Positions 1 to 50,358 are shown, counted from the stretch's first letter. The stretch: 64,000 nt of DNA from Polyangiaceae bacterium (GCA_023150915.1 JAKLKA010000012.1:1-64000), one strand, 5' to 3'. Translations and numbers: made by a program. Notes: a model not told the origin generated them from the letters alone.

Positions 1-1253
1 ATCGCGCGACGCCGCCGCGCTGCTCCAAAAACCAGCGCGGCGATCAGCCACGGTAACGCGGCCCCGCGGGATCGGCCGCTGGTGCTGCAGCCGCCATCGT
101 CACCGCTGTCGCCCTGGGTCTTGGTCTTCTGACCGCCGCCGCCTCCGCTGGCAGCGCCGCCCGCGCCACCGGACGCGCCGCTGCCCGCGCTGCCCGCCGC
201 ACCCGCCATGCCTCCGCCACCGGCCGCACCGGCCGCACCGGCCGCACCGGCCGCACCGCCGGCGCCTCCGGTTCCGCAGTTGCTCTGGGTGTCGCAGGCG
301 TCGCCTTTACCGTCCTGATCGCAGTCGGCCTGGCCCGGGTTCTTGGAGCTCGGGCAGTTGTCCTTCGCGTCCGCCACGCCGTCGCCGTCATCGTCGTCGT
401 CGCAGGCGTCACCCTGGCCGTCTTGGTCCTGGTCTTCTTGACCCGCGTTCTTCGCGTTCGGGCAGTTGTCCTTCGCGTCCGCCACACCGTCGCCATCGGC
501 GTCGGCCGGCTCGGCACAGGTCGAGCCCTTGGCAAAACCCTCGGTGGGGCTCTTGCCCAGGCGCGCGTCGGTGGCTGGCCCGAAATCGCCGTCCTCCGTG
601 ATCTTGTCTTCGGGGTGGTTCAGGTTCCACAGGCGCTGAAACGCGAGCACGTCTTTGCCCTTGAGGTCGACCGTGCCGCCACCCACGTAGGTGTAGTGGT
701 AGACGTCGCTCGAGCCGTACCACTGGAAGCCCTTGGCGGTGAGCGCGCTCTTCCACGCGGTGTAGTCGTTGGTGTCGAAGGCCGTGCCGCCTTCGTGATT
801 CGAGTTGCCCGGGGTGGCGGCCAGCGGGATGCCGCATTTGCCCGCCTTGTACCAGTGATAGAGCAGCCACTGCTGGGGCAGCGTGCGCAGCATGCTGCTG
901 ATGTTCAGCTTCATGCCAGGGTTGGCGTCCACGGCTTTCACCAGTGCGTCCACCGCAGCCGGCTGCATGTACATGAAAACGTGGCTGTAGGCCTTCACCA
1001 GGTTCGGACGAGAGGGCACGGCCTTCATCGCCTTGGGATTGATGCAGTTCATCTCGGCGATGATCTGCTTGCTGAGCCCCTCGACCACCGAAGTGGAGCA
1101 GCCGCCGGAAAGCGCCTGCGACACGCTGAGACCGCTCTGGACGGTCGCGACCTCTTCGTGCGGCTCGGGACCGTCGGGCTCGCCGTCCGGCAACTCCGCG
1201 GCGCAGCCCGCGAGCGCGATCACACCCAGGACCGAGACCGCCCGACGCACCAT
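1..1253 (-). CDS. Secreted M15 (VanY-like) D-Ala-D-Ala carboxypeptidase with TSP3 repeats and MYXO-CTERM; 3' end cut by window
   Basis: Predicted zinc peptidase acting on D-alanyl-D-alanine ends of peptidoglycan. I translated it from the sequence because the ORF track omits it (no stop inside the window). From the N-terminus it shows a lipoprotein-like leader (VIALAGC), an M15 core with NHEGGTAFD near residue 150 followed by SDVYHYTY, a peptidoglycan-binding-like stretch (AFQRLWNLN, then [11 protein letters not shown]), two TSP3 units ([13 protein letters not shown]), a Gly/Ala linker and a MYXO-CTERM signal (GCSTSGR, hydrophobic helix, ARRRRA). The ATG shares its A with the TGA of the upstream SpoIID gene (TGATG), so the two wall enzymes are probably translationally coupled. 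Only the last few residues should be missing. TSP3 repeats bind calcium in known proteins; MYXO-CTERM proteins are processed by a sorting protease and reach the cell surface. Confidence 0.85.
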
Positions 1254-2665
1254 CACTGCATTCTCCGCCGGCGGGCCGCGAACGCAAGCAGAGCGAGTGC
1301 GCCGACCAGCCCGACCGGGGCTCCAGCAGGCCGACCGCTGGTGCTGCACCCACCCTCGTCACCGCCGTCGTCCACCAGCTTGGTCTGCTGCCCCGCACTG
1401 CCGCCGGTGCTCTTCCCGCCCGAGCCGCCCGAGCCCGATCCACTGGAACCGCCCGAGCCCGCGCTGCCGCCGGTGCCGCTCGACCCGCCGCTGCCGCTGG
1501 TGCCGCCGGTGCCGCTCGAGCTGTCGCAGGCGTCTCCGATGCCGTCGTCATCGCCATCGGCCTGATCCGCGTTCGACTTCTCGGGGCAGTTGTCCTTGTC
1601 GTCCGCAACGCCGTCGCCGTCGTCGTCGGTCTCGCAGGCGTCTCCCTTGCCGTCCTGGTCAAGGTCCTTCTGATCGGCGTTCTTGGCGCTGGGGCAGTTG
1701 TCCTTGTCGTCCGCAACGCCGTCGCCGTCGTCGTCGGTCTCGCAGGCGTCGCCCTTGCCGTCCTTGTCCGTGTCGGTCTGGGCCTTGTTGGCCACCAGCG
1801 GGCAGTTGTCCGTGCCGTCTGCCACGCCGTCGCCGTCGTCGTCGGTGTCGCAGGCGTCGCCCTTGCCGTCCTGGTCCGAGTCCTTCTGATCGGCGTTCTT
1901 GGCGCTGGGGCAGTTGTCCTTGTCGTCGGTCACCCCGTCGCCGTCACCGTCGGCCGGGCCCACACACGAGCCGGTGGCGGTGAGCAGCTTGATGTCCGCG
2001 CCGTAATAGAACTGCAAGATTTGCTTGTAGTCGTAGCTCTTGTTCGCCTCGAGGCAGCGCGCACCCCACTGGCTCATGCAGCCGCGGTTCTGGCCGTAGC
2101 CGGGCGGGCCGATGTAGCCGAGCGAGGTCTGCTTCACGCTGGTCCCGCTGAGCCCCTGGTTGTAAGTGACGTACTTCTCCATCGGGTGGCTCGAGCTGCC
2201 CTTGCAACTCGGCGCCGAAGTGTTGTTGTCGCCGCTCACGTAGAAGCCGTAGGTGAGCATCCCGCCGAACGAGAGGTAGATCCCCGCGGTCTCTTTCACC
2301 GCCTGATAGGCCTTGGCGGACGGCTTCGCTCCGCACGAGTAGACCTGGCAGCCTTGCCCGTCGCAGATCGAGCCTTTGGTGGCCATCGCGTAGTAGGCGA
2401 CGGACCGCGCGGCGATGGCCTGCGCCTTCAGCGCCTGGAGGTTCGCGCCGCCGTTCTCGCAGGTGATCACGTGGGGGAGGTAGTCGTCCTCCATGCTCTT
2501 GGTGCCGGCGCCGGTGACCGGGATGGTGCAATAGGCCTTGGCGAGCGGTGCGCTGACGTCTTGTTGCACCTCGAGGATCGGCTCTTCGTTTCCGATTGGA
2601 CCCGCCTGGCAGGCGAGCGCGAAGAGAGCGACCAGCAAGCACCCGAAGCGAGCCCAATGCGCCAT
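1253..2665 (-). CDS. SpoIID/LytB-domain protein with TSP3 repeats and MYXO-CTERM
   Basis: 470 residues. SpoIID/LytB proteins are peptidoglycan lytic transglycosylases or amidase enhancers. A leader ends at Cys ([10 protein letters not shown]), then comes the SpoIID core with [14 protein letters not shown] and [16 protein letters not shown], which is the family's conserved centre. After it lie four 36-residue TSP3 units ([40 protein letters not shown]), a Ser/Gly linker and a MYXO-CTERM tail ([11 protein letters not shown], helix, ARRRRMQ). It is the upstream partner of the M15 peptidase and overlaps it by one base. No clear ribosome binding site precedes the ATG. The pair suggests a calcium-associated surface wall-remodelling unit; substrate is inference. 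Confidence 0.87.
1545..1950 (-). repeat. Four TSP3 repeat units inside the SpoIID gene
   Basis: Tandem units of about 108 bases (36 residues) rich in Asp codons, each with a DNCP core. They are coding repeats, nearly identical between units one and three. Confidence 0.8.
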
Positions 2666-2865
2666 GCGGGATGTATGTGCAAGGGCGAGTCCATGACCCG
2701 ACGGCGTGATTTCGTGCGGTTAGGCCGCGCGCGCGGAGGCAGTGCCGACTCCGCCTGCCAACCGGCGGTTGGCGGGGGTGCGGAGTGGGGCTCGCCATCG
2801 GCTGTCCCGCAAAAGTGTCCGCGCGAGTCCATTTTTTGCTAAAAACGGGAGTCGTGTATGCCCGA

Positions 2866-4035
2866 ATGATCCAGCCGCCGCACCAACAGAGCTTCTTCTT
2901 GTTCGGCCCGCGTGGAACGGGCAAGTCGAGCTGGGTCCGCGCGCATTACCCCGACGCAGCGTACGTCGATCTCCTCGATGACGAGACCTATCGGCGGCTC
3001 CTCGCGCGCCCCTCGACGCTGACCGAGCTCCTCGAGCCACCCCGCCGAGGCGTGCCCCGCGGGTCCAGGCGTGGTCAGAGAGGCCAGGTGGTCGTGATCG
3101 ACGAGGTCCAGAAGGTGCCAGCGCTTCTGGACGAGGTACACCGGCAGATCGAGGCGCGCGGCACTCAGTTCGTGCTCACGGGGTCGAGCGCGCGCAAGCT
3201 TCGCAAGCAGGGGACGAATCTCCTTGCCGGCCGCGCCTTCACGTACTCCCTGTTTCCGCTGACGGCCCGCGAGTTGGGCGACGACTTCGACCTTGCCCGT
3301 GCGCTTCGGTTCGGCACCTTGCCCATGGCTGTCACCTCCCGAGCGCCCGCCCGTTACCTCTCGTCCTACGCCAGGACTTACCTCAGGGAGGAAGTCGAGC
3401 AGGAGGGCCTGACGCGACAGATCGGCAGCTTCGCGCGATTCCTGGAGACTGCGAGCTTCTCGCAGGCGGCATGCCTGTCGGTGGCCCAAGTCGCCACTGA
3501 CGCCCAGGTTCATCGCAAGGTGGTCGAGGACTACTTCGGTATCCTGCGCGACCTGCTTCTATCCCACGAGCTGCCGGTGTTCTCGCGTCGCGCAAAGCGC
3601 GAGCTCATGACCAAGCGGAAGTTCTACTTCTTCGACGTGGGGCTCTACCGGACGCTTCGGCCTCGAGGCCCACTGGACAGCGAAGCGGAGCTGAATGGTC
3701 CCGCATTCGAGACGCTCTGTCTCCAAGAGCTGATGGCGTTGAACCATTACCTGGAAGCGGGGTTCGACTTCTTTCACTGGCGCACGCGAAAGCACGAGGA
3801 GGTCGATCTGGTCCTCTACGGCGAGAAGGGGCTCTTGGCGTTCGAGCTCAAGGCCGGCAGCCGGCTGCGCGAAGCGGACTTCAGGGCGCTGGAGCTCTTC
3901 GGTGGGGACTACCCGGAAGCACGCCTCATCCTGGTCTACACGGGGACTCGAGCGGAGCGGCGCAAAGGTATCGAGCTCATCCCCGCCGATCGCTTCTTCG
4001 CCACGGCGGGCGACATTCTGCTCGGAGACGTCTGA
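2866..4035 (+). CDS. AAA ATPase with C-terminal DUF4143 domain
   Basis: 389 residues from the ATG at 2866; the track start at 2785 adds an unlikely 27-residue leader, and an in-frame GTG lies at 2854. The protein has Walker A (FGPRGTGKS), Walker B (VVVIDEVQKVP), a sensor-like LTGSSARKLR segment, and a C-terminal DUF4143 region with a nuclease-like pattern (EEVDLVLYG then LLAFELKAG). Such proteins are widespread single-gene ATPases of unknown physiological role, frequently in variable parts of genomes. It stands alone on the plus strand between two minus-strand secreted-protein clusters, consistent with an acquired gene. No partner gene is adjacent. Confidence 0.85.
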   Translation: MIQPPHQQSFFLFGPRGTGKSSWVRAHYPDAAYVDLLDDETYRRLLARPSTLTELLEPPRRGVPRGSRRGQRGQVVVIDEVQKVPALLDEVHRQIEARGTQFVLTGSSARKLRKQGTNLLAGRAFTYSLFPLTARELGDDFDLARALRFGTLPMAVTSRAPARYLSSYARTYLREEVEQEGLTRQIGSFARFLETASFSQAACLSVAQVATDAQVHRKVVEDYFGILRDLLLSHELPVFSRRAKRELMTKRKFYFFDVGLYRTLRPRGPLDSEAELNGPAFETLCLQELMALNHYLEAGFDFFHWRTRKHEEVDLVLYGEKGLLAFELKAGSRLREADFRALELFGGDYPEARLILVYTGTRAERRKGIELIPADRFFATAGDILLGDV

Positions 4036-14552: not shown

Positions 14553-16133
14553 CTACCTCGCGCGCCGCCGCGCGAGACCGATGAGCGCCAACACCGACAG
14601 AAGCCCCGCGAGCGGCTGACCACGGCTCGGACCAGGCAGCGTGCACGCGCAGCCGGCGTCGACCTCGTCTGCCTGCCCGCCCGCCCCGGGCTCCTCGAAG
14701 CCCAGATCGCCGCGATCGCCGCCGGAGCAGGCCTCACCCTTGTCGCCGATGCCGGCCTTCTGATCGGGGTTGACCACGGTCGGGCAGTTGTCGACGGCAT
14801 TGAAGACGCCGTCCCCGTCCAGATCGTCGTCGCAGGCGTCGCCCACGCCGTCCTCGTCCGCGTCGTCCTGGTTCTGCTCGGAAAGCTCCGGGCAGTTGTC
14901 GCTCGCGTTGGCGATGCCGTCGCCGTCTCGGTCGTCGTCGCACGCGTCGCCCTGACCGTCGCCGTCGGTGTCCGCCTGGGTGGGGTCGGGGTCTTCGGGG
15001 CACACGTCGGTGGCGTCCAGCACGCCGTCGCCGTCGTCGTCGTCGTCGCACGCGTCGCCCGTGCCGTCCTTGTCGGCGTCGGCTTGGTCGGCGTTGCCGT
15101 CGAGCTTGCAGTTGTCGTCGGCATCGGGGATGCCGTCCCCGTCGTCGTCGGTCTCGCAGGCGTCACCCTTGCCGTCTTTGTCGGTGTCGGTCTGGGTCGT
15201 GTTCTTCACCAGCGAGCAATTGTCCTGGGCGTCTGCCACGGTGTCGGCGTCGTCGTCGGTGTCGCACGCATCGCCCTTGCCGTCCTTGTCGGTGTCCAGC
15301 TGGCTCTTGTTGGCGGAAAGATCGCAGTTGTCCTTGGTGTCGGCGACCCCGTCCCCGTCGTCGTCGGTGTCGCAGGCGTCGCCCTTCTTGTCTTTGTCGG
15401 TGTCGGTCTGAGTCGCGTTCTTGGTGGTCGGGCAGTTGTCCTTGTCGTCCGCCACGCCGTCGCCGTCGTCGTCGGTGTCGCACGCATCGCCTTTGCCGTC
15501 CTTGTCGGCGTCGGCCTGGCTGGCGTTCTTGGTGCTCGGGCAGTTGTCCTTGCCGTCCGCCACGCCGTCGCCGTCCTTGTCGGCGAAGTCCTGGATGTTG
15601 TCGCGGCGGATCGCCTTGTAGCTCGAGCTCACCGAGCGACTGCCGCGAACGCAGCCGTAGCTGCACCCCTTGCACTCGATGGCGGTCACCCAGCCCCAAG
15701 GGTCCCCGCTCTCGTACAGGAAGATGTGCCCCGCGCCGTTCGAGTTGTACACGAAGGCGTCGGCCTTCTTGGCGCTGCCGCGCGAGATGGCGTTCCAGTG
15801 GTAGCTGTAGTTCTCGAAGTGGAAGGTCGAGTAGGGGTGCGAGTCCGTGGTCACGCTGATCGCGCTCGGCACCTGCCACGCCTTCGCCACGAAGCCCGAG
15901 CAGTCCGCGCCGTAAGACCCCGAGTGCGAGCAGCTGGGGCAGCTTCCCGAGCACGAGCCGTGCGACGTCGAGGTGGTGCTCCAGCGGCCGTGCCCCCACC
16001 AGTACGAGAACTTCACCACGCCCTTGCCACGCGCGATGATCTCGTCACGGGTCATGGCGGGCGGCGCGGCCAGCGCCGGCAACGCGACGGCGAGCGTGGC
16101 GCCCACCAGCGCCAGCTGAACGATGCGGCTCAT
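14553..16133 (-). CDS. NlpC/P60-like wall hydrolase with eight TSP3 repeats and MYXO-CTERM
   Basis: 526 residues. Signal peptide LALVGATLAVALPALA. The catalytic domain (about residues 30-190) shows the cysteine motif GADCSGFVAKAW and the His segment GAGHIFLYE expected of NlpC/P60 cysteine peptidases, with an extra Cys-rich insert (GSCSGSCPSCSHS). Eight 36-residue TSP3 units follow, then an acidic linker and a MYXO-CTERM tail (GCACTLPGPSRG, helix, ARRRAR). ATG overlaps the upstream beta-propeller-like gene's stop as ATGA. Probably a calcium-associated peptidoglycan endopeptidase at the surface. Confidence 0.85.
   Translation of the reverse strand: MSRIVQLALVGATLAVALPALAAPPAMTRDEIIARGKGVVKFSYWWGHGRWSTTSTSHGSCSGSCPSCSHSGSYGADCSGFVAKAWQVPSAISVTTDSHPYSTFHFENYSYHWNAISRGSAKKADAFVYNSNGAGHIFLYESGDPWGWVTAIECKGCSYGCVRGSRSVSSSYKAIRRDNIQDFADKDGDGVADGKDNCPSTKNASQADADKDGKGDACDTDDDGDGVADDKDNCPTTKNATQTDTDKDKKGDACDTDDDGDGVADTKDNCDLSANKSQLDTDKDGKGDACDTDDDADTVADAQDNCSLVKNTTQTDTDKDGKGDACETDDDGDGIPDADDNCKLDGNADQADADKDGTGDACDDDDDGDGVLDATDVCPEDPDPTQADTDGDGQGDACDDDRDGDGIANASDNCPELSEQNQDDADEDGVGDACDDDLDGDGVFNAVDNCPTVVNPDQKAGIGDKGEACSGGDRGDLGFEEPGAGGQADEVDAGCACTLPGPSRGQPLAGLLSVLALIGLARRRAR
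14745..15580 (-). repeat. Eight TSP3 repeat units
   Basis: Coding tandem repeat of about 108 bases per unit, each with DGDGVAD and a DNC core. In the last units DNCP becomes DVCP or the spacing changes. Confidence 0.8.
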
Positions 16134-32677: not shown

Positions 32678-35764
<3,087 letters not shown>

Positions 35765-38825: not shown

Positions 38826-39272
38826 CTAGCCTCGAGAGCCCTCGACCAGCGGGTTCGCCGTCTTGATCGCGGCGAAGCGGTTGAAGTCACGGTCGGCAGT
38901 CCAGAGCTCTGCCACGCCGTGCGCGATGCACAGCGCCGCAATGCGTGCGTCGTGGACCTTGGCCCCCGTGACCTGCGATGAGCGGAGCAGAGCGGCCAGG
39001 GCGTCCCAGTAACCTTCCTCTTCGGCGAGAAGTCGGACCGCCGGCGAGCCCAGCCACTGACTGGTTTGTTGGACCGCGAGCTCGAGAGGTGTCGGTGCCT
39101 TGTAGATCCGAGCGTTGGTGACGTTGGCCACGAACTCGTGGATACACGGCCACGGCAGCGCCCAGCGCGTTCCACCCTCGACCAGCTGCCGCACCACACG
39201 TTCGGCTCGATCGTGGAACGGTGAATCGCTTCGGTGCGAGTACACCAGGATGTTCGTATCAACCGCGATCAC
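38826..39272 (-). CDS. PIN-domain RNase toxin (VapC-like)
   Basis: 148 residues from GTG 39272, overlapping the antitoxin stop as GTGA. PIN acidic residues are visible in VIAVDTNILVYSHR, IHEFVANVTN, and VHDARIAALCIAHG with TADRDFNRF. VapC toxins cleave tRNA or rRNA; target unknown here. Convergent with the preceding pair, leaving 59 bases between stops. Confidence 0.85.
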   Translation of the reverse strand: MIAVDTNILVYSHRSDSPFHDRAERVVRQLVEGGTRWALPWPCIHEFVANVTNARIYKAPTPLELAVQQTSQWLGSPAVRLLAEEEGYWDALAALLRSSQVTGAKVHDARIAALCIAHGVAELWTADRDFNRFAAIKTANPLVEGSRG

Positions 39273-39526
39273 GCGCCTCGGCCTTCGTACGTCAGGTCGC
39301 GCAACCGATCGCTGTCGGTCCATTCGAGCCCCTCGACGAGGCCCCCGGCACCGAACGAGCAGTCCTTCATTTGGTACCGGGTGGCCGCCGGCCGCTCGCG
39401 TTGAAGGATCTCGCTGAGCCCCTCGAGCAAGAGCGCGCGAAGCGAGGTCTTGCGCTCGTGCGCTAGCTTCTTGGCACGTCGGAACAGGCTGTCGGGGATG
39501 TCGATCGACGTCCGCATTATGCTCAT
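39269..39526 (-). CDS. VapB-like antitoxin
   Basis: 85 residues from ATG 39526 (ATG 39517 possible). N-terminal ribbon-helix-helix (MRTSIDIPDSLFRRAKK, SLRALLLEGLSEIL) and a C-terminal toxin-binding tail with acidic and aromatic residues (GLEWTDSDRLRDLTYEG). The start codon lies directly against a perfect palindrome, as expected for autorepression. Confidence 0.82.
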   Translation of the reverse strand: MSIMRTSIDIPDSLFRRAKKLAHERKTSLRALLLEGLSEILQRERPAATRYQMKDCSFGAGGLVEGLEWTDSDRLRDLTYEGRGA

Positions 39527-39544
39527 GCATATCCCATAATATGC
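39527..39544. promoter_or_regulatory. VapB operator palindrome
   Basis: GCATAT, six bases, ATATGC: a perfect 6-bp inverted repeat immediately upstream of the antitoxin ATG. A third half-site GTATGC follows at 39547-39552. The AT content contrasts with the GC-rich surroundings. Confidence 0.6.
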
Positions 39545-39577
39545 CTGTATGCAAGACAGCTGGGCGCGGGGCTCGCA

Positions 39578-41050
39578 ATGAGCCTGGACTACGCTGCCGC
39601 GATGCGCTTCCTCCACCCCGAGCACGACGAAGAGCTCGAGCTCTCCACCGATGACGTCTTCCTGAATCCCGGCTTCTACGAGGGTACGTCCCGCCTCGAG
39701 ACGGATCTTTCCCCTTCCGACTTCCCCGGCTGCTCGCACCCGATCGTGTCGGCGAACATGAACGCCGTCACCGGCAAGCGCATGGCCGAGACGATGGCCC
39801 GATTCGGTGGGCTCGGTGTGCTGCCGCAGGACATGGACATCGACACCGTCGCCCGCATCGTGGCGCACATACACTCGTCCGATCCGCGCTACGACACGGC
39901 GCTGTCCGTCTCACCACGCGCCACGTTGCGCGACGTGCAGGGCATCATCCGCAAGCGGTCGCACGACCTGGTCGTCGTGGTCGACGACGAGCGGAGGCCG
40001 CTGGGCATCATCACCCACGCCGACCTGCGCGACCGCGACCAGTTCACGCCGGCATCGGCCATCATGTCGAAGCGCCTGGTCACCTTGCCGGTGGGGATCA
40101 CGAACCGCGATGCGTTCCTGTGCATGGAAGACGCGCGCGTGAAGGCGGCGCCGGTGCTGGACGCAGACGGACGCCTGGTCGGCATCCTGGGGCGCGACGA
40201 CGCCGTGCGCCTCGAGCTTCTGCGCCCGGCGCTGGGCCCGAAAGGCGAGCTGATGGTCGGTGCGGCCATCGGCATCTCGGGTGATGCGCCGGCCCTGGCC
40301 GGGCGGCTCGTCGAGCTCGGCGTTGCCGCCATCGTCGTCGACACGGCCCACGGCCACCAGCGGCGCATGCTCGAGACGCTGCGCGCGGTCTCGAGCGTCG
40401 TGGGCGGTCGCGTGCCGGTCGTCGCGGGGAACGTGTGCACTGCCGAGGGCACGCGCGCGCTGCTCGAGGCGGGCGCCGACGTGGCCAAGGTCAACGTGGG
40501 CCCCGGCGCAATGTGCACGACGCGCATGCAGACCGGCGCGGGACGCCCCACCTTCACTTCCGTGCAGGTCTGCGCGCGCGAGGCGCGGGCACTGGGCAGG
40601 CACGTGTGGGCCGACGGCGGCGTCCGCCACCCGCGTGACGTCGCGCTCTACCTCGCTGCCGGCGCGACGCGCGTCATGGTGGGTACCGCGCTCGCCGGCA
40701 CGTACGAGAGCCCGGGCGACGTCAAAGAGGACAGGGACGGCGCGCTCTACAAGGAGAACTACGGGATGGCCAGCGCACGCGCGGTGAGCGACCGCGCCGC
40801 CGATCAGGACGCCTTCGACCGGGCAAAGAAGGGGTTTTTCCGAGAGGGCATCTCCACCTCCCGCATCTACATCCGCGAAGGCCACGAGAGCGTCGGAGCC
40901 ATCGTCGTGGACATGATCACCGGCGTCCAGTCGGCGTTCACCTACGCGGGGGCAAGGTCCATCGACGAGCTTTTCGCGAAGGCGGTGATCGGTGTCCAGA
41001 GCCCCGCCGGGTACCTCGAGGGCACGCCGCACGGAGCCCTCCGGCGCTAG
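39578..41050 (+). CDS. guaB1: GuaB1-type GMP reductase (IMPDH/GMPR family with CBS domains)
   Basis: 490 residues. TIM barrel interrupted by tandem CBS domains (about residues 105-220; ALSVSPRATLRDVQGIIRK, DEERRPLGIITHADL). The catalytic cysteine loop is VNVGPGAMCTTRMQTGAGRP, and HVWADGGVRHPRDVAL and GTYESPGDVKEDRDG are as in actinobacterial GuaB1, which works as a GMP reductase (GMP to IMP) regulated through its CBS domains, not as the essential IMP dehydrogenase. In canonical GuaB the loop has GSICTTR. Monocistronic as far as visible; starts 34 bases from the divergent VapBC operator. Confidence 0.85.
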   Translation: MSLDYAAAMRFLHPEHDEELELSTDDVFLNPGFYEGTSRLETDLSPSDFPGCSHPIVSANMNAVTGKRMAETMARFGGLGVLPQDMDIDTVARIVAHIHSSDPRYDTALSVSPRATLRDVQGIIRKRSHDLVVVVDDERRPLGIITHADLRDRDQFTPASAIMSKRLVTLPVGITNRDAFLCMEDARVKAAPVLDADGRLVGILGRDDAVRLELLRPALGPKGELMVGAAIGISGDAPALAGRLVELGVAAIVVDTAHGHQRRMLETLRAVSSVVGGRVPVVAGNVCTAEGTRALLEAGADVAKVNVGPGAMCTTRMQTGAGRPTFTSVQVCAREARALGRHVWADGGVRHPRDVALYLAAGATRVMVGTALAGTYESPGDVKEDRDGALYKENYGMASARAVSDRAADQDAFDRAKKGFFREGISTSRIYIREGHESVGAIVVDMITGVQSAFTYAGARSIDELFAKAVIGVQSPAGYLEGTPHGALRR

Positions 41051-41164
41051 CTCGATCGTGCAGCCAAAGCCCGCCGAAGCACCGTGACGCGGCAGGCGGC
41101 CAGGTCCGGAACGAGACCTGCGCCCCGCCCGTCGGGGCTGATCTCTCTCGCCGGCCCGGCCGAC

Positions 41165-41281: not shown

Positions 41282-42121
41282 ATGAGATTGAGAAATGTGC
41301 TTCCGACCCTGTTCGCGTTCGGCCTCGTGCTGGCCGCGAACGAGGCGCGCGCCAGTTATCCGGCGGGCGTCTGGGTCAAGGTGAAGAAGGTGGTGTTCGA
41401 GCCCGACGCGACGACGCCCACCAAGATCCAAATCCACGGCGCTGCGATGCTCTACGACAAGAGCACCGGCACGAGCTACGCGGGCTACAGCGAGCCGGCG
41501 TTCGGCTTCCTCTATTACAGCTGCCCAGCTGGAAAAGAGAAGACGTGCGTCAGCGAGTGGGCTGACGTCGAGAAGAACATCAAGGCGACCGACGACGTCT
41601 GCGTGGGGCTCGGTGATCAGAGCCTGCCCACCGGCACGCTGCGCGCACCGAACGCAACGCCCGGAACACCCGATGCCTATCCGATCGCGATGGGCGTGCT
41701 CACCGGCTACACGCCGTGTCTGGCCATCGAGAAGTTCTTGAAGAGCCAGCCCGACGGCGGCACCGGTGGGAGCGGCGGCACCGGCGGCTCCGGCGGCGCC
41801 GACGGCGGGAGCACCGGAGGGTCGACCAGCACCGGAGGGTCGACCAGCACCGGAGGGTCGGCCGGCTCGGGAAGCGGCGGCAGCGCCGGAAGCGCCGGCG
41901 GCGCCGCAGGGTCGGGAAGCGGCGGGGCCTCCAGCGGCGGGGCCTCGGCCGGCGGCGGCGCGCCGAGCGGCGGCACGTCGGGCGGTGGAGCGAAGTCGGG
42001 CGACGACTCGAGTGACGACGGCGGCTGCTCCGTCTCGGCGCCGAGCTCGGTCGCGGGCCTGGGGTGGCTGCTCGCGGGCCTGGGCGCGGTTTTCGCCCTG
42101 CGGCGAGGAAAGCGAGGCTGA
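41282..42121 (+). CDS. Secreted MYXO-CTERM protein
   Basis: 279 residues from ATG 41282 with GGAGG upstream; the track start lies 66 codons too early. Signal peptide LFAFGLVLAANEARA, a compact domain of about 140 residues with few Cys (FGFLYYSCPAGKEKTCVSEW), a long Gly/Ser/Ala linker with an 18-base repeat coding STGGST, and a MYXO-CTERM tail (DDGGCSVSAPSS, helix, RRGKRG). Family of the folded domain not recognised. First gene of the desaturase/decarboxylase operon; three bases separate it from the next gene. Confidence 0.78.
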   Translation: MRLRNVLPTLFAFGLVLAANEARASYPAGVWVKVKKVVFEPDATTPTKIQIHGAAMLYDKSTGTSYAGYSEPAFGFLYYSCPAGKEKTCVSEWADVEKNIKATDDVCVGLGDQSLPTGTLRAPNATPGTPDAYPIAMGVLTGYTPCLAIEKFLKSQPDGGTGGSGGTGGSGGADGGSTGGSTSTGGSTSTGGSAGSGSGGSAGSAGGAAGSGSGGASSGGASAGGGAPSGGTSGGGAKSGDDSSDDGGCSVSAPSSVAGLGWLLAGLGAVFALRRGKRG

Positions 42122-42124
42122 CCC

Positions 42125-43342
42125 ATGGCGATGCCCGCGGAGTGGTGGTCCCTCGAAAGCGCGCGTCGATCGCGCGCACTGTTCCGCCACTCCGCGCGCG
42201 ACGCCTGGCTGGTCGCCGCGACGTGGGCCCAGGCCGGAGTGACGCTGCTGGCCTTCGGCGGCGCGGCCCGCAGCGAAGGCGGCTTGGTGCTCGCCGCGGC
42301 GCTGTTCGGCGTCGGCATCTGCTGGTGCTCGAACACCGTGTCGCACAACCATCTGCACAACGCGCTGTTCACGTCGAGAACGCTCAATCGTGCCTTCGAT
42401 CTGTGGCTGACCCTGCTGGTGGGCGTGCCGCAGTCCCTGTGGAAGGCGCGTCACCTGTGGCACCACGCCGGCGAGCCCGCGGGCGCGCGGCTGTCCGCCA
42501 AGCGGCACGAGCTCTGGGCGATCGGGGCGCTCTGGGCAGTGCTGTTGGCGGTGGCGCCCAAGGTGTTCCTGTTCGCCTACGTGCCGGGTTACCTGCTGGG
42601 CCTTGCGCTCTGTCGCCTGCAAGGCAGCATGGAGCACGCGCGCGCCGAGTCTCCCGAAGCGGGCGTCAGCCACTACGGGCGCCTCTACAACTTCTTCTGG
42701 TTCAACGACGGCCATCACGCCGAGCATCACCAGTTCCCGAGCGAGCACTGGACGCGCCTGCCCGCGCGGCGCGCCGAGGTGGCCTTCGCCGAGAGCGCAC
42801 TGCCGCCGCACCTGCGCTGGCTCGAGCGCGCCACGATGGGCGAGCTCAAGGGCCTGTTTTTGTGCGCCCTGGAGCGGATCGCGCTGGGCTCGTTCGCGCT
42901 GCAACGCTTCATGCTGTGGACCCACGCCCGGGCCATGGCGCCGCTGGTTCTGGCCTTGCCCCGGCGGCCGGTGCGGGTGGCGATCGTCGGCGGCGGGCTC
43001 TTCCCGCGAAGTCTGCTGGTGCTGGCGAAGCTCTTGCCCGAGGCACGCTTCGAGGTGGTCGATCGCTCGGTCAGCAGCGTGTCGTGCGCCGTCGACTTCT
43101 TGAAGCGCCACGGCTTCCCGCTCCAGCGCGTGCGCTTTCGCATCGAGAGCTTCGACCCGCAGCGCCACGCGGACCACGATCTGATCGTCACGCCCCTGGG
43201 CTTCGTCGGCCAGGAAGAGACGCTGTGCGAGGCCGCGCGCCGCACCAGCATCTTGCGCCACGACTGGCTGTGGGTACGCCCCGGCGGCACGTCGCGCGTC
43301 GTCTCGTGGCTGCTGCTCAAGCGGGTGACCCTGGTGCCATGA
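42125..43342 (+). CDS. Fatty-acid desaturase fused to a nicotianamine-synthase-like Rossmann domain
   Basis: 405 residues. The first 280 are a membrane desaturase-type di-iron domain with His boxes SHNHLHN, HLWHH and GHHAEHHQFP and hydrophobic helices between them. The last 120 start PVRVAIVGGGLFPRSLLVLA, with FEVVDRSVSSVSCAVDFL, and resemble the SAM-binding core of nicotianamine synthase-like transferases. The stop overlaps the phosphatidylserine decarboxylase ATG (ATGA). I infer that it modifies a membrane lipid or polar headgroup; the pairing of the two domains in one chain is unusual. Confidence 0.78.
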   Translation: MAMPAEWWSLESARRSRALFRHSARDAWLVAATWAQAGVTLLAFGGAARSEGGLVLAAALFGVGICWCSNTVSHNHLHNALFTSRTLNRAFDLWLTLLVGVPQSLWKARHLWHHAGEPAGARLSAKRHELWAIGALWAVLLAVAPKVFLFAYVPGYLLGLALCRLQGSMEHARAESPEAGVSHYGRLYNFFWFNDGHHAEHHQFPSEHWTRLPARRAEVAFAESALPPHLRWLERATMGELKGLFLCALERIALGSFALQRFMLWTHARAMAPLVLALPRRPVRVAIVGGGLFPRSLLVLAKLLPEARFEVVDRSVSSVSCAVDFLKRHGFPLQRVRFRIESFDPQRHADHDLIVTPLGFVGQEETLCEAARRTSILRHDWLWVRPGGTSRVVSWLLLKRVTLVP

Positions 43343-44166
43343 CCGCCCTGCACCGCACCGAGGCGTTCCTGCGCTGCTACGCGTTCTTGCCGCACCGCCT
43401 GCTGAACCGGGCCACGCAGGCGGTGACCTCTGCCCAGCGACCCGCGTGGGCGGTGGATCGCGCCGTGGACTACTGGGCGCGGCGCGACGGAATCGATCGC
43501 AGCGAGTTCGAGGCGCGCCGCTTCACCTCGCTGGACGACTTCTTCCTGCGCCGCCTGGCGCCCGGTGCGCGCCCCCTCGAGCCCGGCTTCGTGGCGCCCT
43601 GCGACGGGAACCTGATCGCGTCCGGCGCCATCGATCTGCGCCGCCCGATGGTGGTCAAGCAGCAGCGATTGAGCGTCGATCGCGTGGTCAGCGGCGGGGT
43701 CTACGACCAGGACTTGTCGGACTTCGACGGCGGCACGTACGCGGTCATCTTCCTCACGCCGCGCGGCTACCACCGGGTGCACATGCCGGTGGCGGGCACG
43801 CTCGAGTCGGTGCGCTGGATCCCGGGGCGGTACTTCCCCCAGAACGAGGACGCGCTGCGGGTGGTCCCGCGGGTCTACGAGCGCAACGAGCGCGCCACGC
43901 TCTCGTGTCGTGACGCGCAGGGGCGCCGGTTCTTGATGGTGATGGTGGGCGCCAGCTTGATCGGTGGCATCCATCTCGAGGGCGCCTTGCGCCGTGAGTG
44001 GGCCCAGACCAAGCCGCACGCGCTGGGTCGCACGCTGCAACGCGGCGACGAGGTCGGGCACTTTGCCTTCGGCTCGACGGTGGTCGTGCTCTTGCCGCGG
44101 GGCTACGCCTCGGGTGTGATCGGGCGCCCCGAGGTGCGGATGGGGCAGACGCTGCTGCACTCGTGA
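43339..44166 (+). CDS. psd: Phosphatidylserine decarboxylase
   Basis: 275 residues. Converts phosphatidylserine to phosphatidylethanolamine at the membrane. Recognisable features are FDDFFLRRL-type start (SLDDFFLRRLAPGARP), APCDGNLIASG, YHRVHMPVAG, VMVGASLIGG and the self-cleavage site FGSTVVVLLP, where the Ser becomes the pyruvoyl group. The E. coli motif is LGST; FGST is a common variant. Coupled translation with the desaturase fusion suggests that phosphatidylethanolamine is produced for the same lipid programme. Gene symbol given for the function; a second copy elsewhere cannot be excluded. Confidence 0.9.
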   Translation: MTALHRTEAFLRCYAFLPHRLLNRATQAVTSAQRPAWAVDRAVDYWARRDGIDRSEFEARRFTSLDDFFLRRLAPGARPLEPGFVAPCDGNLIASGAIDLRRPMVVKQQRLSVDRVVSGGVYDQDLSDFDGGTYAVIFLTPRGYHRVHMPVAGTLESVRWIPGRYFPQNEDALRVVPRVYERNERATLSCRDAQGRRFLMVMVGASLIGGIHLEGALRREWAQTKPHALGRTLQRGDEVGHFAFGSTVVVLLPRGYASGVIGRPEVRMGQTLLHS

Positions 44167-44193
44167 CGTGGGCGCTGCCCGTGCCCCGAGACG

Positions 44194-45939
44194 TCACGGC
44201 CCCAGAGCCGCCCGCCGCGACGCCGACCACGCGAGCAGGTGCGCACGATAGCGCTCGGCGCGCTCCGGGTGGGACCGGGCCAGGTCGTGCTGCTCGCCCG
44301 GATCGCTGGCCAGGTCGAACAGCCGGGTGCGATCGTGCTCACTGGAATACACGGCCTTGAACCGACCCTGCCTCAGACCCAAGAGCAGCGGCCCGTGATC
44401 GGTGAAGAAGCGCGCCACGCGGGGTTCGGGCGCGAGCAGCGAGCGGCCTTCGTGCCGCGGATCGGGCGCCAAGCCGAGCAGGGCCAGCGTGGTCGGCCCA
44501 AGGTCGATGGTGCTGGCGATCTGCGGCACGCGCACTCTCCCCACGGTGAGGCCGGGGGCGCTCACGATCAGCGGCACGCGCACGTTCTCGTCGAACAGCT
44601 GAAGGGTGTGCGCGAAGTTGCCCTCGTGCTGCCCGAAAGCTTCGCCGTGGTCGCCGACGATCACGTACAGCGTGCGCTCGTGCAGTCCGCGTGCGCGAAG
44701 GCCGTCGATCAGCGCGCCGAAGGCGGCGTCGCCGGCGAAGAGATCGTTCAGATAGTGTTCCTTCTCGCTCTTCGCCGGGAACGGGCGCGGGCCGTCGCCG
44801 GGTGACTTGTACGGGTGGTGGCCAGAAATGGGCGAGTACACCGCGAAGAAGCGCTGGCCGCCCAGCTGATCCACGTGACTCAGCAGGCGCTGCACGGTCG
44901 AGGCGTCGTCGGTGCCGAAGCTCGAGGCGTGTCTGCCTCCGATGGTCTCCGCGTCGTACGCCGCGTCGAACCCGCGGCCGTCGACGATGCCTTGCATGCC
45001 CAGGTAGCGGAAGCGCCCGGAGTGGAAGAACGCGCGGTGGTAGCCGGCAGAAGCCAGCGAGCTTGCCACCGAGCCGCAGGGCGCGACGTAGTCCTTCGCG
45101 GTGGTCTGGGCGGCGGGCGACGCGCCGCACAGCATGGACCAGAGCCCCTTGATGCTCTCGGGGTAGGCGCTGTACGCCGCGTCGAACACCAGCGCGTCGC
45201 GGCTCACGCGGGTGAGATGCGGCGTCGGATCCTGCGCTGCGCCGTAGGCGCCCAGGTACTGGGCCGCGGTCGACTCGAGGATGACCCAGACCACGTTGCG
45301 GCCCCTGGCCGCGCCGGCGAACTGTGCCAGATCCAGCGCCGGCCCCTCGGGCGGAAGCGCGCTCACCGACTGGACCCGGGGCGCCGGCGCGAGGCGCGCA
45401 AGCGCGGTGCTGCCGAGCGCGAAGGCCGCGTTGCGGTGCAGGCCCAGCGTCTCGACACGAGCCGCAGCCCGCGAGCCCCCGAGCCCCACGACCAGCAGCG
45501 CAACGCCGACGGCCGCCGCGCGCCGCAGCGTGATGAAAGAGCGGATCCGCGTGGTCGCCGCGGCCACGAGCACCACGAACGCCATGGCGCCCAGGTTCGA
45601 TGCCGTGACGTGCAGTGCAATCGAGTCGCTGAGCGCGCCCCCGGTCGCGCCGATCATCGAGATGGTGAGCGGTGTCGAGAACACCCGTGCCACGGCCACG
45701 TTGAACGCGCCGTAGACGATCAAGAGCCACGCCAGCCCCCAGAGCCCCCGCGGAGTGCGGCGAGCAAGGGCAAGCTCCGCGAGCAGGAAGGCGGCCACCA
45801 CCAGCGCGTCTTGGTGGAGCATCGCGAGCGGCGCGAGGGCGTCGAGCAGGCTGGCGCCCCCGCCGTCGGCCACCCGCAGCACGACCAGGCAAAGCTTGCA
45901 GGCGGTCAGGCCGGCGGCCAGGGCCAGGCTGCGACTCAC
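44194..45939 (-). CDS. Membrane alkaline-phosphatase-superfamily transferase (LtaS/EptA/sulfatase-like)
   Basis: 581 residues from GTG 45939; ATG 45999 would add 20 residues, but that stretch holds a rare TTA codon and duplicate regulatory motifs. Four to five N-terminal membrane helices precede an extracytoplasmic catalytic domain from about residue 190. Metal-ligand segments WVILESTAAQYLGAYG and VIVGDHGEAFGQHEGN and a possible Ser nucleophile in YPESIKGLWSM are visible; there is no sulfatase C-x-P-S-R. This pattern is closer to lipoteichoic-acid synthase or phosphoethanolamine transferase families than to true sulfatases. It converges with the psd operon. Confidence 0.75.
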   Translation of the reverse strand: MSRSLALAAGLTACKLCLVVLRVADGGGASLLDALAPLAMLHQDALVVAAFLLAELALARRTPRGLWGLAWLLIVYGAFNVAVARVFSTPLTISMIGATGGALSDSIALHVTASNLGAMAFVVLVAAATTRIRSFITLRRAAAVGVALLVVGLGGSRAAARVETLGLHRNAAFALGSTALARLAPAPRVQSVSALPPEGPALDLAQFAGAARGRNVVWVILESTAAQYLGAYGAAQDPTPHLTRVSRDALVFDAAYSAYPESIKGLWSMLCGASPAAQTTAKDYVAPCGSVASSLASAGYHRAFFHSGRFRYLGMQGIVDGRGFDAAYDAETIGGRHASSFGTDDASTVQRLLSHVDQLGGQRFFAVYSPISGHHPYKSPGDGPRPFPAKSEKEHYLNDLFAGDAAFGALIDGLRARGLHERTLYVIVGDHGEAFGQHEGNFAHTLQLFDENVRVPLIVSAPGLTVGRVRVPQIASTIDLGPTTLALLGLAPDPRHEGRSLLAPEPRVARFFTDHGPLLLGLRQGRFKAVYSSEHDRTRLFDLASDPGEQHDLARSHPERAERYRAHLLAWSASRRAALGP

Positions 45940-45974
45940 TGGTAACTCGGTGTCCGGCCGGTTACCGGTGACTC
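45936..45974. promoter_or_regulatory. Two GAGTYACCRGTRA motifs, candidate enhancer pair
   Basis: On the minus strand GAGTTACCAGTGA (45948 to 45936) and GAGTCACCGGTAAC (45974 to 45961), about 25 bases apart; together they also form an 11-bp inverted repeat with one mismatch. They lie roughly 80 and 107 bases before the predicted sigma-54 start of the 46063 gene and resemble the site at 41165. Confidence 0.5.
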
Positions 45975-46022
45975 GAAACCATCCGTCGCTGTAGTCCATC
46001 GTTTTGCTGCTTTTTTTCGGGG

Positions 46023-46062: not shown

Positions 46063-49000
46063 ATGAGCCTCTTCGCGCACCCCCGCTACCAGCCTGGACC
46101 CGTCCTGGGGCGGGGTGGCCAGGCCGTGGTGCTGCGGGTCACCGATCGCGAAGCGCCCGCGCGCGCGCTGGTGGCCAAGCTCTGGCAACCCGGCGCCTTC
46201 GACGAAGCGCTGCTGCGCGGCGAGTTCGCGCTGCTCTCGCGCCTGCATGTGCCGGGCCTGGTGCGCGCGCACGATCTGGGTCGCGACGAACGGACCGGCG
46301 CGCCGTTCTTGGTCGAAGACTTCATCGACGGACCGGACGCGCGCGCGTGGTTGGCCAAGGCCGCCAGCGATCGCGCCCGCTCGGAGCGGCTGGCCCGTGT
46401 GCTGGGCGAGGTCACCGCCACCCTGGCGGTGCTCCACGACAGCGGCTTCTTGCACGGCGACCTCAAGCCCGCTCACGTGCGCGTGCCCGACGACGGGCGC
46501 GCCACCCTGCTGGATCTGGGCGCGGCGGTGGCGCGGGCTCGGGCCGATCTCGGACCACATGCCGTGACGCCGGGCTACACCGCCCCCGAGCTGCAGGCCG
46601 GCGCGCGCCCCAGCCCGCGCACCGATCTGTTCGCCCTGGGTGCGCTGGCGCTGTGCGCGGCCACGGGGAAGTCGCCCGAGACCACGCAGCCGGTACGCGA
46701 GCTAGCGCCGTGGCTGCCGCCCAGCCTGGGCGACCTGATCGATCGGCTGCGCGCCGGCCACCCGGAAGATCGCCCGGCCGGCGCCCGCGAGGTGCTGGCG
46801 CTGCTGGGCCAGAGGGTGGCGAGCGGCGCCCCGCGCCCGGTGCGTTCGCTGCGCAGCGGCTCGGCTGAGCGCTCGGTGCGCGAGGCCCAGCTCGCCGAGC
46901 TCGATCTCCTTGCCCCGGGTGTGACCTACCTGACGGGCGCTGCCGGCATGGGCAAGAGCCACCTGCTCTCGGAGTGGGTGACGCGGGCGCTTCTGGCGGG
47001 AAAAGCAGCTCGGTGGCTGCGGTTTCCCCAGGTCGACGCGGGCGCCTTGTCGCAGTTGATCGCGTGGCTGCGCGGCTCCGAGCACGCACGCCCCTTCGCG
47101 CCCGGGCCGTTATCGCTGGCCCTCGACGACGTCCACTCTGCACCGTCCGAAGTGCGCGTCGCGCTCGAGGCCTTTCGCTGTCGGCGACGCGACCCGGACG
47201 ACGTCACGCTGATCGCTGCGTTGCGCTCCGCGCCCGGCGATGCCCCCAGCGTGGCGCTGGGGCCCTTGGATCTGCTGGGCGTGCGCGGGCTGTGCGCAGA
47301 GCTGGGCGTCGAGACCCAGCGCGCGGAAGAGCTCTTCAAGGCGAGCGAAGGCAGCCCCGGGTTCGTGGCTGCCCTGGCGGGCAAGGCCCCGCTCACGGGC
47401 GCGGCGGTGCTGGCGCGCGCGAAGCAGCTGAGCGCCGACGCGGCCAAGGCGCTGGGCGCGTTGGCGGCGGTCGGTGGCAGCGCCAGCGATTCGCTGCTGG
47501 GCGCGCTGTTCGGCGAGCAGCGCTCGCCCCGCGCCTGCGCCGAGCTGGCGGCGGCCGGGTTGGTCGAGCGCCGATCGGGCTCGGTGTGGGCGCTGGCGCA
47601 CGCCGAGATCCGTGACGATCTCGCCGGCGCCCTCGCCACCTTCGACCTGGTCGAAGCGGTGGCCGGCGTGGCCCTTGGCTCGCGCGCTCCCCTTGGCCCC
47701 GCGCAGCTCTTGTCACTGGCGCGTTCGCCCGCACCGCCCAGCACGCGCGCCGAGCTGCTGACGCTCGCTGCAGAGCGAGCGCGAGCAACCGGGCTGCGCT
47801 CGATCGAGACCGAGGCGCTGCTCGACCTGGCCGCCGATCCCGCGACACGCACGCCCGAGGTGCTGACCGCCCTCGACCGATCCACGCGGGGCGGCGGGAG
47901 CGCCGGGCTCCACCCCGAGCTGATCGAGTGGCTGGAGACGTGCCCCCCGCTCGGCGTTCTGGCGCAACGGCGGCGCGCCGAGCAGACGGCGCGCTCGGGG
48001 GATCACGCGCGGGCCGCGGAGCTGGCAGAGCGCGCACTGGCGCTCGCCGAGTCGCCTTCCGACCAGGTGCTGGCCCTCTCGACCTTGGCCTCGACCGCGC
48101 TCTATCGCGCCGACTGGACGAGCGCCGAGGCTGCGCTGTCGCGAGCCACGGCGGCGCTCGGCACCGCCGCGATCGACGACACGGAAGAGCTGGCGCGCCT
48201 CGACCACAACCGCGGCGTGGTCGCGCTGTATCGAGGGCGACTGGACGAGGCGCGCGACGCGTTCGAGCGATCACTGCGCGCCAAGCGCGCCATGGGTGAT
48301 CGCGGCGGCACCTGGGCGTGCCTGCTGAACCTGGCGCTGGCACAAGGGCAGCTGGGCCAGTTCGCGCCCGCCGAAGAGGCGCTGGTGGAGGCGGTTGCGA
48401 CCTGTCGCGCGCTGGGGCAACTGTCGGGCGCGGGCTGGTGCCTGGCTGCGCTCGCCGACGTGGCGCTGCGGCGCGGGGACCCTGTGGCGGCCGAGCGCTG
48501 GGTGGCCGAGGCCGAGCACCTGGGCGACGTGGTGCCGAAGCCGGTGCACGCCGATCTGGCGCTGCTGCGCAGCGAGCTGGCGCTGACAGCAGGCGACGGG
48601 CAGCGGGCCCTGGGCGCGCTCGCGGCCGTGGACCCCGACCTCTTGGCTCAGGACCCCTTGCTCGACGCGCGCGCTCTGACGCTGCGTGCGCGAGCACACC
48701 TGTGCACGCTCCCGGCCGATCGCAAGCTTGCCGCGCGCACCGCCGTGCGGGCCGCGCGCCGCGCGCGACGCGCGGGCTTGCCGGAGCCCGAACGACGCGC
48801 GCTCGGGGTTTTCTCCGCGGCGCGACGCCGCTTCACTTCGGCGCCACCCACCAGCTACGCTCGCGCCCCGGTGGCAGGGGACGAACAGCTCTGGGCCTTC
48901 TTGGCCACGGCCAGCACGGCGGAGAGCCGCGAGGCGGCCGTGCTCTCGCTGTGTCGCTGGGTGGTCGAGGCCAGCGGCGCCGAGCGCGCGTTCGTGTTCT

Positions 49001-50358
49001 CCGGCGGCCAAGGCTTCGGGGTCGACGTCGACGGGGTGCCCATCCCCGACGCGAGCGCGCGGGTTCCCGGCGAGGTGGTGCAGGCCGCGCTTGGCGCCGG
49101 CGGGGTCGCGAGCCACCCCACGGTGTCGACCCGGGGGGGCGCTGGCTCGCGCCTGACCGCCGTGGGCCCCGAGACCGCGCGCGGCGGGCGTGCGCTGCTC
49201 TTGCTCGAGCACCGCTTCGTGCCCAACGCGTTCGAGTCGCTCGATCGCCAGCTGGTCGAGCGCTGGGCCGTCTGCGCCACGCTGGCGCTGGCGCTGGGCG
49301 GCGAGCACGAAGCGGTCGTCGTGCACTCCGCGGCGCCCCCGCCCGAGCTGGCGGCGCTGTCGATGCACGAGCCGAGCACCGTGCTGCCCTCGCGCCGCGG
49401 TCGACGCGCTTTCCCTGGCATCGTGGGCGAGAGCCCCGCCTTGAGCCGCGCCCTCCGCCGGCTCGACACCGCGGTGGACAGCGAGCTGCCGGTGCTGATC
49501 ACGGGCGAGACGGGCGTGGGCAAAGAGCTGTTTGCGCGGGCGTTGCACGACAGCGGTCCGCGCGCGCGGGCGCCGTTCGTGGCCATCAACTGCGGAGCCG
49601 TGCCCGATTCGCTCTTCGAGGCCGAGCTGTTCGGTCACGCTCGCGGCAGCTTCACCGGCGCCGATCGTGCGCGCGCCGGCCTGATCGCGCGCGCCGAGGG
49701 CGGCACCTTGTTCCTGGACGAGATCGGCGAGCTGCCGTTGATGCGTCAGGCAACCCTGCTGCGGGTGCTGGCCGAGCGCCGCTATCGGCCGGTGGGCAGC
49801 GACGAAGAGAAGCCGTTCGACGTCCGCGTGATAGCGGCCACCAATCGCGACCTCGAGCGCGAGGTCGAAGCAGGGACCTTCCGGCGGGATCTGCTGTATC
49901 GCCTCAACGTGCTCGAGGTTCGCGTGCCGCCCCTGCGCGAGCGCCCGGAAGACATCTTGGTCATCGCCGAGCACGTGCTCTTGGGCACGGGTACCAGCGC
50001 CGTGCTGTCACAGCGCGCGGCGCGTGCACTGATGTCACACCGCTGGCCCGGAAACGTCCGCGAGCTCGAGCACCAGATCCAGCGCGTGGCGGCGCTGGGT
50101 GTGGCACGCATCGAGCTCGAGCACCTGTCACGAGAAGTGCGCGCTGCGTTCAAAGGCGACCCAACACCCAAGCTGACCTTGCCGCCCAGCAAGAAGCCCA
50201 GCGGCCCGGATGCCGAGCGGGAAGAGGTGCGTGCGGCGCTGGAGCGCGAGGGCGGAAACATCACGCGGGCCGCCGAGCGCTTGCGCCTGACCCGCCATGG
50301 CCTCAAGAAGAAGATGGTTCGCTTGGGGCTCCGCGAGCCGAAGGCCTCGGGAGGGTGA
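46063..50358 (+). CDS. Giant sigma-54 activator: kinase-like, NTPase, TPR, GAF, AAA+ and Fis HTH
   Basis: 1431 residues. An N-terminal protein-kinase-like domain (10-250) has GRGGQAVVL, LVAKLW, then HGDLKPAH where HRDLKPEN is usual, and DLG for DFG; the catalytic Asp residues remain but Arg and the metal-binding Asn are lost. An STAND/AAA-type NTPase follows (Walker A GAAGMGKSHLL near 291), TPR-like helices (about 640-865), a GAF-like domain (about 940-1090), the sigma-54 AAA+ domain (GETGVGKE near 1147, GSFTGAD near 1196, [12 protein letters not shown]) and a Fis-type helix-turn-helix (GNITRAAERLRLTRHGLKKK). It couples several signal inputs to sigma-54 transcription. Confidence 0.9.
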   Translation: MSLFAHPRYQPGPVLGRGGQAVVLRVTDREAPARALVAKLWQPGAFDEALLRGEFALLSRLHVPGLVRAHDLGRDERTGAPFLVEDFIDGPDARAWLAKAASDRARSERLARVLGEVTATLAVLHDSGFLHGDLKPAHVRVPDDGRATLLDLGAAVARARADLGPHAVTPGYTAPELQAGARPSPRTDLFALGALALCAATGKSPETTQPVRELAPWLPPSLGDLIDRLRAGHPEDRPAGAREVLALLGQRVASGAPRPVRSLRSGSAERSVREAQLAELDLLAPGVTYLTGAAGMGKSHLLSEWVTRALLAGKAARWLRFPQVDAGALSQLIAWLRGSEHARPFAPGPLSLALDDVHSAPSEVRVALEAFRCRRRDPDDVTLIAALRSAPGDAPSVALGPLDLLGVRGLCAELGVETQRAEELFKASEGSPGFVAALAGKAPLTGAAVLARAKQLSADAAKALGALAAVGGSASDSLLGALFGEQRSPRACAELAAAGLVERRSGSVWALAHAEIRDDLAGALATFDLVEAVAGVALGSRAPLGPAQLLSLARSPAPPSTRAELLTLAAERARATGLRSIETEALLDLAADPATRTPEVLTALDRSTRGGGSAGLHPELIEWLETCPPLGVLAQRRRAEQTARSGDHARAAELAERALALAESPSDQVLALSTLASTALYRADWTSAEAALSRATAALGTAAIDDTEELARLDHNRGVVALYRGRLDEARDAFERSLRAKRAMGDRGGTWACLLNLALAQGQLGQFAPAEEALVEAVATCRALGQLSGAGWCLAALADVALRRGDPVAAERWVAEAEHLGDVVPKPVHADLALLRSELALTAGDGQRALGALAAVDPDLLAQDPLLDARALTLRARAHLCTLPADRKLAARTAVRAARRARRAGLPEPERRALGVFSAARRRFTSAPPTSYARAPVAGDEQLWAFLATASTAESREAAVLSLCRWVVEASGAERAFVFSGGQGFGVDVDGVPIPDASARVPGEVVQAALGAGGVASHPTVSTRGGAGSRLTAVGPETARGGRALLLLEHRFVPNAFESLDRQLVERWAVCATLALALGGEHEAVVVHSAAPPPELAALSMHEPSTVLPSRRGRRAFPGIVGESPALSRALRRLDTAVDSELPVLITGETGVGKELFARALHDSGPRARAPFVAINCGAVPDSLFEAELFGHARGSFTGADRARAGLIARAEGGTLFLDEIGELPLMRQATLLRVLAERRYRPVGSDEEKPFDVRVIAATNRDLEREVEAGTFRRDLLYRLNVLEVRVPPLRERPEDILVIAEHVLLGTGTSAVLSQRAARALMSHRWPGNVRELEHQIQRVAALGVARIELEHLSREVRAAFKGDPTPKLTLPPSKKPSGPDAEREEVRAALEREGGNITRAAERLRLTRHGLKKKMVRLGLREPKASGG

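Follow-up and report, generated by a model that had tools for sequence, protein, structure and literature searches.

A four-gene locus was studied in a 64,000-nucleotide stretch of DNA from a Polyangiaceae bacterium (GCA_023150915.1, JAKLKA010000012.1:1-64000; referred to as the window), which represents contig C184 in a draft genome of 8.0 Mb. The genes encode a MYXO-CTERM protein (X), a putative desaturase fused to an S-adenosylmethionine (SAM)-fold domain (DES), a phosphatidylserine decarboxylase paralog (Psd) and a predicted phosphotransferase (SULF). The first three form one tight operon on the plus strand and SULF is convergent on the minus strand (Table 1). Three bases separate the stop codon of X, whose longest open reading frame opens at 41084, from the start of DES, and the DES stop overlaps the psd start in an ATGA at 43339-43342, in agreement with the translational coupling proposed in a first-pass annotation made from the sequence alone. 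The three genes listed in that annotation (DES, psd and SULF) are real, but it missed X, the upstream gene of the same operon and a member of the co-inherited set described below. The features at the locus are confirmed as real and lie far above chance, as their motifs are invariant in an alignment of 16 homologs. The gene order, which could have been a peculiarity of this DNA, recurs in many genomes and is kept across families.

Table 1. Features of the four-gene locus, positions counted from the first nucleotide of the window
Feature	Position	Strand	Basis or remarks
X, MYXO-CTERM protein	41282..42121	+	signal peptide, ~120-aa domain with four conserved Cys, low-complexity Gly/Ser-rich linker, Cys-transmembrane (TM)-Arg tag
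MYXO-CTERM sorting tag of X	42017..42106	+	TIGR03901
DES, predicted membrane di-iron desaturase with class I SAM-fold domain, 405 aa	42125..43342	+	PF00487, alignment, AlphaFold2
DES His box 1 (H74, H78), HxxxH	42344..42358	+	invariant in alignment
DES His box 2 (H110, H113, H114), HxxHH	42452..42466	+	invariant in alignment
DES additional invariant His, H171	42635..42637	+	invariant in alignment
DES His box 3 (H198, H201, H202), HxxHH	42716..42730	+	invariant in alignment
DES C-terminal SAM-fold domain (modelled), residues 280-405	42962..43339	+	Foldseek; invariant GGGxFPR, PL, HxW, K399; D313
Psd, phosphatidylserine decarboxylase paralog, 275 aa	43339..44166	+	PF02666, TIGR00163
FGST self-cleavage (pyruvoyl) site of Psd	44068..44079	+	kept in 19/19 cassette Psd sequences examined
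SULF, membrane helices and predicted periplasmic alkaline-phosphatase-superfamily phosphotransferase domain, LtaS/EptA type	44194..45999	-	ATG at 45999; PF00884
Predicted Ser nucleophile codon of SULF (PES-IKG)	45154..45156	-	Ser in alignment; Thr in L036

DES passes the Pfam cut-off for fatty acid desaturases (PF00487, FA_desaturase) with 62.6 bits against 29.7. It was aligned with homologs from the class surveyed here (290 genomes, mostly drafts), giving 17 sequences, and with 4 from outside the class. All nine histidines, including those of the three boxes already seen in the first-pass annotation, are invariant in 21/21 sequences and arranged as in membrane di-iron desaturases and hydroxylases. 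We predict that DES is an enzyme of one of these two kinds. A profile search of its desaturase part against the PDB gave no match. A search of plasmids gave only unfused rhizobial desaturases, the closest of which are 25-30% identical. An unfused relative beside an NAD-epimerase-like gene (L023:1477-2571, minus strand) represents a desaturase outgroup in which the SAM domain is absent. Identity with the plasmalogen desaturase CarF was rejected, as DES has no match to PF10520 (E<=1) and the cassette contains no ElbD-like gene. The idea of an unusual lipid in the first-pass annotation still fits; its ether-lipid part finds no support: the cassette holds no ether-lipid gene and the CarF match is absent.

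The C-terminal domain of DES starts with PVRVAIVGGGLFPRS, where a Rossmann domain had been suspected, and is well modelled by AlphaFold2 (pLDDT 81.6 for DES). Foldseek places the modelled domain with many class I methyltransferases (E 4e-5, probability 1.00), so that by structure prediction it is a class I SAM-methyltransferase Rossmann fold and not some fold unable to bind a nucleotide or SAM. Its GGGxFPR, PL and HxW motifs and K399 are invariant across the 21 sequences, and the acid after strand 2 is D313, replaced by Glu in one sequence only. Single members of the DES family match Methyltransf_25 and Methyltransf_31 in Pfam, and also nicotianamine synthase (NAS). The label nicotianamine-synthase-like, given to the domain earlier, could not be upheld: DES reaches 15.3 bits with PF03059 (cut-off 27.1), and hhalign gives a probability of 40.6% against the NAS MtNAS and of 95.4% against a generic myxobacterial methyltransferase. 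This comparison is a rough control, with single-sequence targets and a methyltransferase that was itself found with the same profile. No DES-family member in 189 genomes of the phylum exceeds the PF03059 cut-off, and no stand-alone copy of the domain with a strong score was found in 379 phylum genomes. We therefore rejected identity as a nicotianamine synthase. The domain may bind SAM and transfer methyl groups; the warranted label is SAM-methyltransferase-fold domain, naming no particular reaction.

The cassette Psd passes both PF02666 (156 bits) and TIGR00163 (119.8 bits, cut-off 111.75). At least one further Psd is encoded elsewhere in 15/15 tested class genomes with the cassette Psd, and also in G408 and G350 from outside the class, and this other copy usually has the higher score. 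Six of seven cassette-free genomes have a single copy. Because all tested genomes holding the cassette Psd have another one, we regard it as a dedicated paralog. The housekeeping psd at G000:C65:14927-15547 is located about 13 kb from a gene for an MrtX-like CPBP protease (C65:28611-28955); in G111, G176, G171 and G121 the two genes are likewise close together (12-17 kb).

SULF, listed in the first-pass annotation as a convergent LtaS/EptA/sulfatase-like neighbour, matches PF00884 with 127 bits and has about five N-terminal hydrophobic stretches ahead of its alkaline-phosphatase-superfamily domain. The alignment keeps E240, S280 (or Thr) and D448-H449, corresponding to the Glu and Asp-His metal ligands and the nucleophile, as well as the Cys pair 289 and 306 (numbers of the alignment reference; +2 when counted from the ATG). 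At the nucleophile position the SULF relatives have Ser, or Thr in L036, where sulfatases have Cys. A formylglycine (FGly) sulfatase was rejected, because the sequence at this position is PESIKG and the CxPxR signature is missing, including its P and R. The best transferase-type structures found by profile are 3lxq and LtaS/LtaP. Domain, nucleophile, metal ligands and membrane helices point to a phosphotransferase of the LtaS/EptA type. SULF is mostly convergent with the operon, but L047 and L051 have it in the same direction as psd, with which it overlaps. The SULF relative of L036 (3078-5879) carries a C-terminal extension of ~330 aa, is preceded by a second SULF-like open reading frame (298-3024) and is followed by DES-psd on the same strand.

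The current view is that an enzyme not yet identified lipidates MYXO-CTERM proteins on their Cys and that myxosortase cleaves them (PMC11980579), which would allow their display at the surface. The secreted protein X scores 23.6 bits with TIGR03901 in the genome scan (cut-off 20) and 18.9 in the protein scan; the protein of L043 reaches 24.1. The 15 X proteins examined at DES loci, and also that of G408, have the Cys, the TM helix and the Arg-rich tail. X has no Pfam match, and its AlphaFold2 model (pLDDT 89.3) no confident fold match in the PDB. Most of the cassette genomes tested encode proteins similar to the CPBP-type MrtX, with scores under its cut-off. Four more MYXO-CTERM tags are found in the window, all on the minus strand (6-98, 1262-1354, 14556-14660 and 32681-32785). 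We also considered the cassette as general MYXO-CTERM lipidation machinery. This was rejected because the tag is common (~66 in this genome) and the cassette rare (~6% of class genomes).

The DES fusion is present in 18/290 class genomes and in four genomes outside the class. Cassette-type SULF proteins (E<1e-200) were found in exactly the same 18 genomes, the next best match having 1e-108. X is present in 17 of them and besides these only as a weak, untagged relative in G279; the sole DES genome of the class without X (G112) is an 88%-complete draft with DES at a contig edge. The cassette is spread over at least seven families with differing flanks. DES and psd are adjacent in 16/18 class loci, with X and SULF alongside in most. 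X adjoins DES in 15 of the 18 class loci scanned; the remaining three are those of G073 and G169, whose X genes lie on other contigs, and one locus that ends at a contig edge. In G073 three X-type matches lie on separate contigs (L109, L112 and G073:C283), one of them broken by a TGA. SULF is 2.3 Mb from DES in G125 and on another contig in G115. Three genera (g14, g89 and g139) include genomes with the set as well as genomes without any part of it. Of the four genomes outside the class, G408 and G450 hold every component, X being unlinked, whereas G350 and G517 have DES-Psd without detectable X. As to occurrence beyond the Myxococcota, all records from a contig scan with one protein carried the labels Myxococcota, Myxococcales or Deltaproteobacteria (one Deltaproteobacteria), which tests a wider absence only weakly.

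A naive hypergeometric calculation gives P of about 1e-25 or less for the co-occurrence; since it ignores phylogeny, it overstates the significance. The stronger argument comes from the contrasts within genera and from the retention of the partners when unlinked. In addition, the four proteins have correlated distance matrices (r 0.74-0.89, Mantel 0-2 of 2000). We conclude with great confidence that X, DES, Psd and SULF form a single co-inherited system, whether by vertical descent or by joint transfer, and the joint role assumed earlier for the genes is supported.

Two neighbouring regions should be mentioned. Divergent from SULF, 46063-50358 encodes a 1431-aa hybrid regulator combining a Ser/Thr kinase, TPR, a sigma-54 activator and a Fis-type helix-turn-helix in a single chain; its homologs near several cassette loci are probably paralogs of a common myxobacterial type. 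A PIN-domain protein is encoded on the minus strand at 38826-39578, adjoining a CBS-containing IMP-dehydrogenase-like gene (39578-41050).

What could such a system do? We infer for it a chemistry and an acceptor. In the inner membrane DES would oxidise a lipid chain, by desaturation or hydroxylation, and its SAM domain would modify the same lipid, the dedicated Psd providing the phosphatidylethanolamine (PE) form. On the periplasmic side SULF would use this lipid as phospho-headgroup donor via its Ser nucleophile, and the acceptor would be X or the lipid anchor of X. The scheme, with precedents for both of its halves, would unite a dedicated lipid supply for anchoring, as with PssA/PssD and archaeosortase in archaea, with a PptA-like transfer of phosphoethanolamine to protein. 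Taken as a whole, this mechanism, a dedicated pathway of aminophospholipid remodelling and headgroup transfer for the outer surface with X as its probable client or partner, is one we put forward tentatively. Of its parts, a PE-type lipid as intermediate is probable, while X as acceptor is doubtful. In a narrower version, DES and Psd would produce a special aminophospholipid whose headgroup SULF attaches to X, so that this one MYXO-CTERM family has a private anchor or phospho-form apart from the other MYXO-CTERM proteins; this appears rather unlikely.

Several observations weigh against the proposed pathway. X is one of ~66 MYXO-CTERM matches in this genome. Because G350 and G517 have DES-Psd without detectable X, DES is not strictly dependent on X. 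G019 has X, DES and SULF, lacks the cassette Psd and holds one Psd copy only, which suggests that ordinary PE synthesis can replace the cassette enzyme. SULF does not reach any transferase equivalog cut-off (LtaS 41.9 against 970 bits, EptA 16.5 against 561). In the SAM-fold domain the GGGxFP motif has no third Gly as in GxGxG, and strand 5 is not followed by the usual helix; methyl transfer by DES is therefore not assured.

A less favoured but serious possibility is that the product of the cassette is a bulk membrane lipid of a special kind, which would be desaturated or hydroxylated and perhaps methylated or capped with phosphoethanolamine. SULF would then act on a glycolipid such as lipid A, and X would bind or sense the special lipid while staying unmodified. 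Lipid A is the usual target of EptA-type enzymes, and both the DES-Psd pairs of G350 and G517 and the unlinked X genes of some genomes would fit. However, nearly all DES genomes of the class also have X, usually as the opening gene of the operon, a tighter association than a loose partner would show. The SAM-fold domain could also be a non-enzymatic ligand-binding or regulatory part of the desaturase, so that the system only desaturates lipids; this agrees with the truncated methyltransferase fold, the atypical motif I and the lack of a recognised catalytic motif, but R295, H379, W381 and K399 do not vary between classes, which is more than the fold requires, and we consider it unlikely.

Still less probable, and in our opinion very improbable, is a transfer of the 3-amino-3-carboxypropyl group of SAM to a lipid, as in nicotianamine synthase or BtaA, followed by decarboxylation of the new amino-acid headgroup by the Psd paralog. 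The NAS-like motif I (GGGLFPRT, compared to GGGPLPLT in NAS), weak PF03059 matches in 6/15 members and the presence of a second Psd speak for it. On the other hand, hhalign favours a generic methyltransferase, the cassette Psd is above the TIGR00163 cut-off, and G019 manages as if its housekeeping Psd were enough. That the genes are neighbours by chance or shared ancestry alone we regard as next to impossible: long syntenic stretches are indeed common to related myxobacterial genomes, but the recurrence in at least seven families with different flanks, the covariation within g14, g89 and g139, and the retention of unlinked partners, in short the co-occurrence data, contradict it.

The four-part set was previously unrecognised, and we found no description of it in the literature searched. 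X, overlooked at first, may be the point of the system. How MYXO-CTERM proteins are lipidated chemically is an unsolved question (PMC11980579), to which the cassette offers a tractable entry point: it is compact, patchily distributed, and couples co-inherited lipid enzymes to one tagged surface protein. That the desaturase-SAM fusion recurs suggests a lipid modification not yet catalogued.

Compared to known systems, DES shares the di-iron His boxes, the helical membrane core and an above-cut-off score with the membrane fatty acid desaturases of PF00487, but every strong complete DES match carries the C-terminal SAM-fold domain. This domain has a SAM-type Rossmann fold and a similar glycine loop in common with nicotianamine synthase (MtNAS, 3o31/3fpe), while it covers only part of the NAS profile, below the cut-off and weakly by hhalign. 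CarF/PEDS1, the plasmanylethanolamine desaturase of myxobacteria, is likewise a His-rich membrane desaturase and acts on PE-type lipids (PMC9131029); DES belongs to another Pfam family and its cassette has no ElbD-type gene. With the headgroup transferases PptA, EptA and LtaS, SULF shares the alkaline-phosphatase-superfamily domain, the Ser/Thr nucleophile and the membrane helices, although it stays below all equivalog cut-offs; the EptB-related PptA modifies a surface protein by transferring phosphoethanolamine onto pilin (PMC4010543). X has the Cys-TM-Arg tag of MYXO-CTERM/myxosortase sorting (PMC11980579), but the cassette is rare and hence distinct from the general pathway. In archaea PssA and PssD are required for lipid anchoring of archaeosortase (ArtA) substrates (PMC7157517). 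The common theme is the making of phospholipid headgroups for surface proteins with a C-terminal tag; the cassette, lacking a sortase and PssA, combines it with a bacterial MYXO-CTERM tag, a desaturase-SAM fusion and a predicted phosphotransferase.

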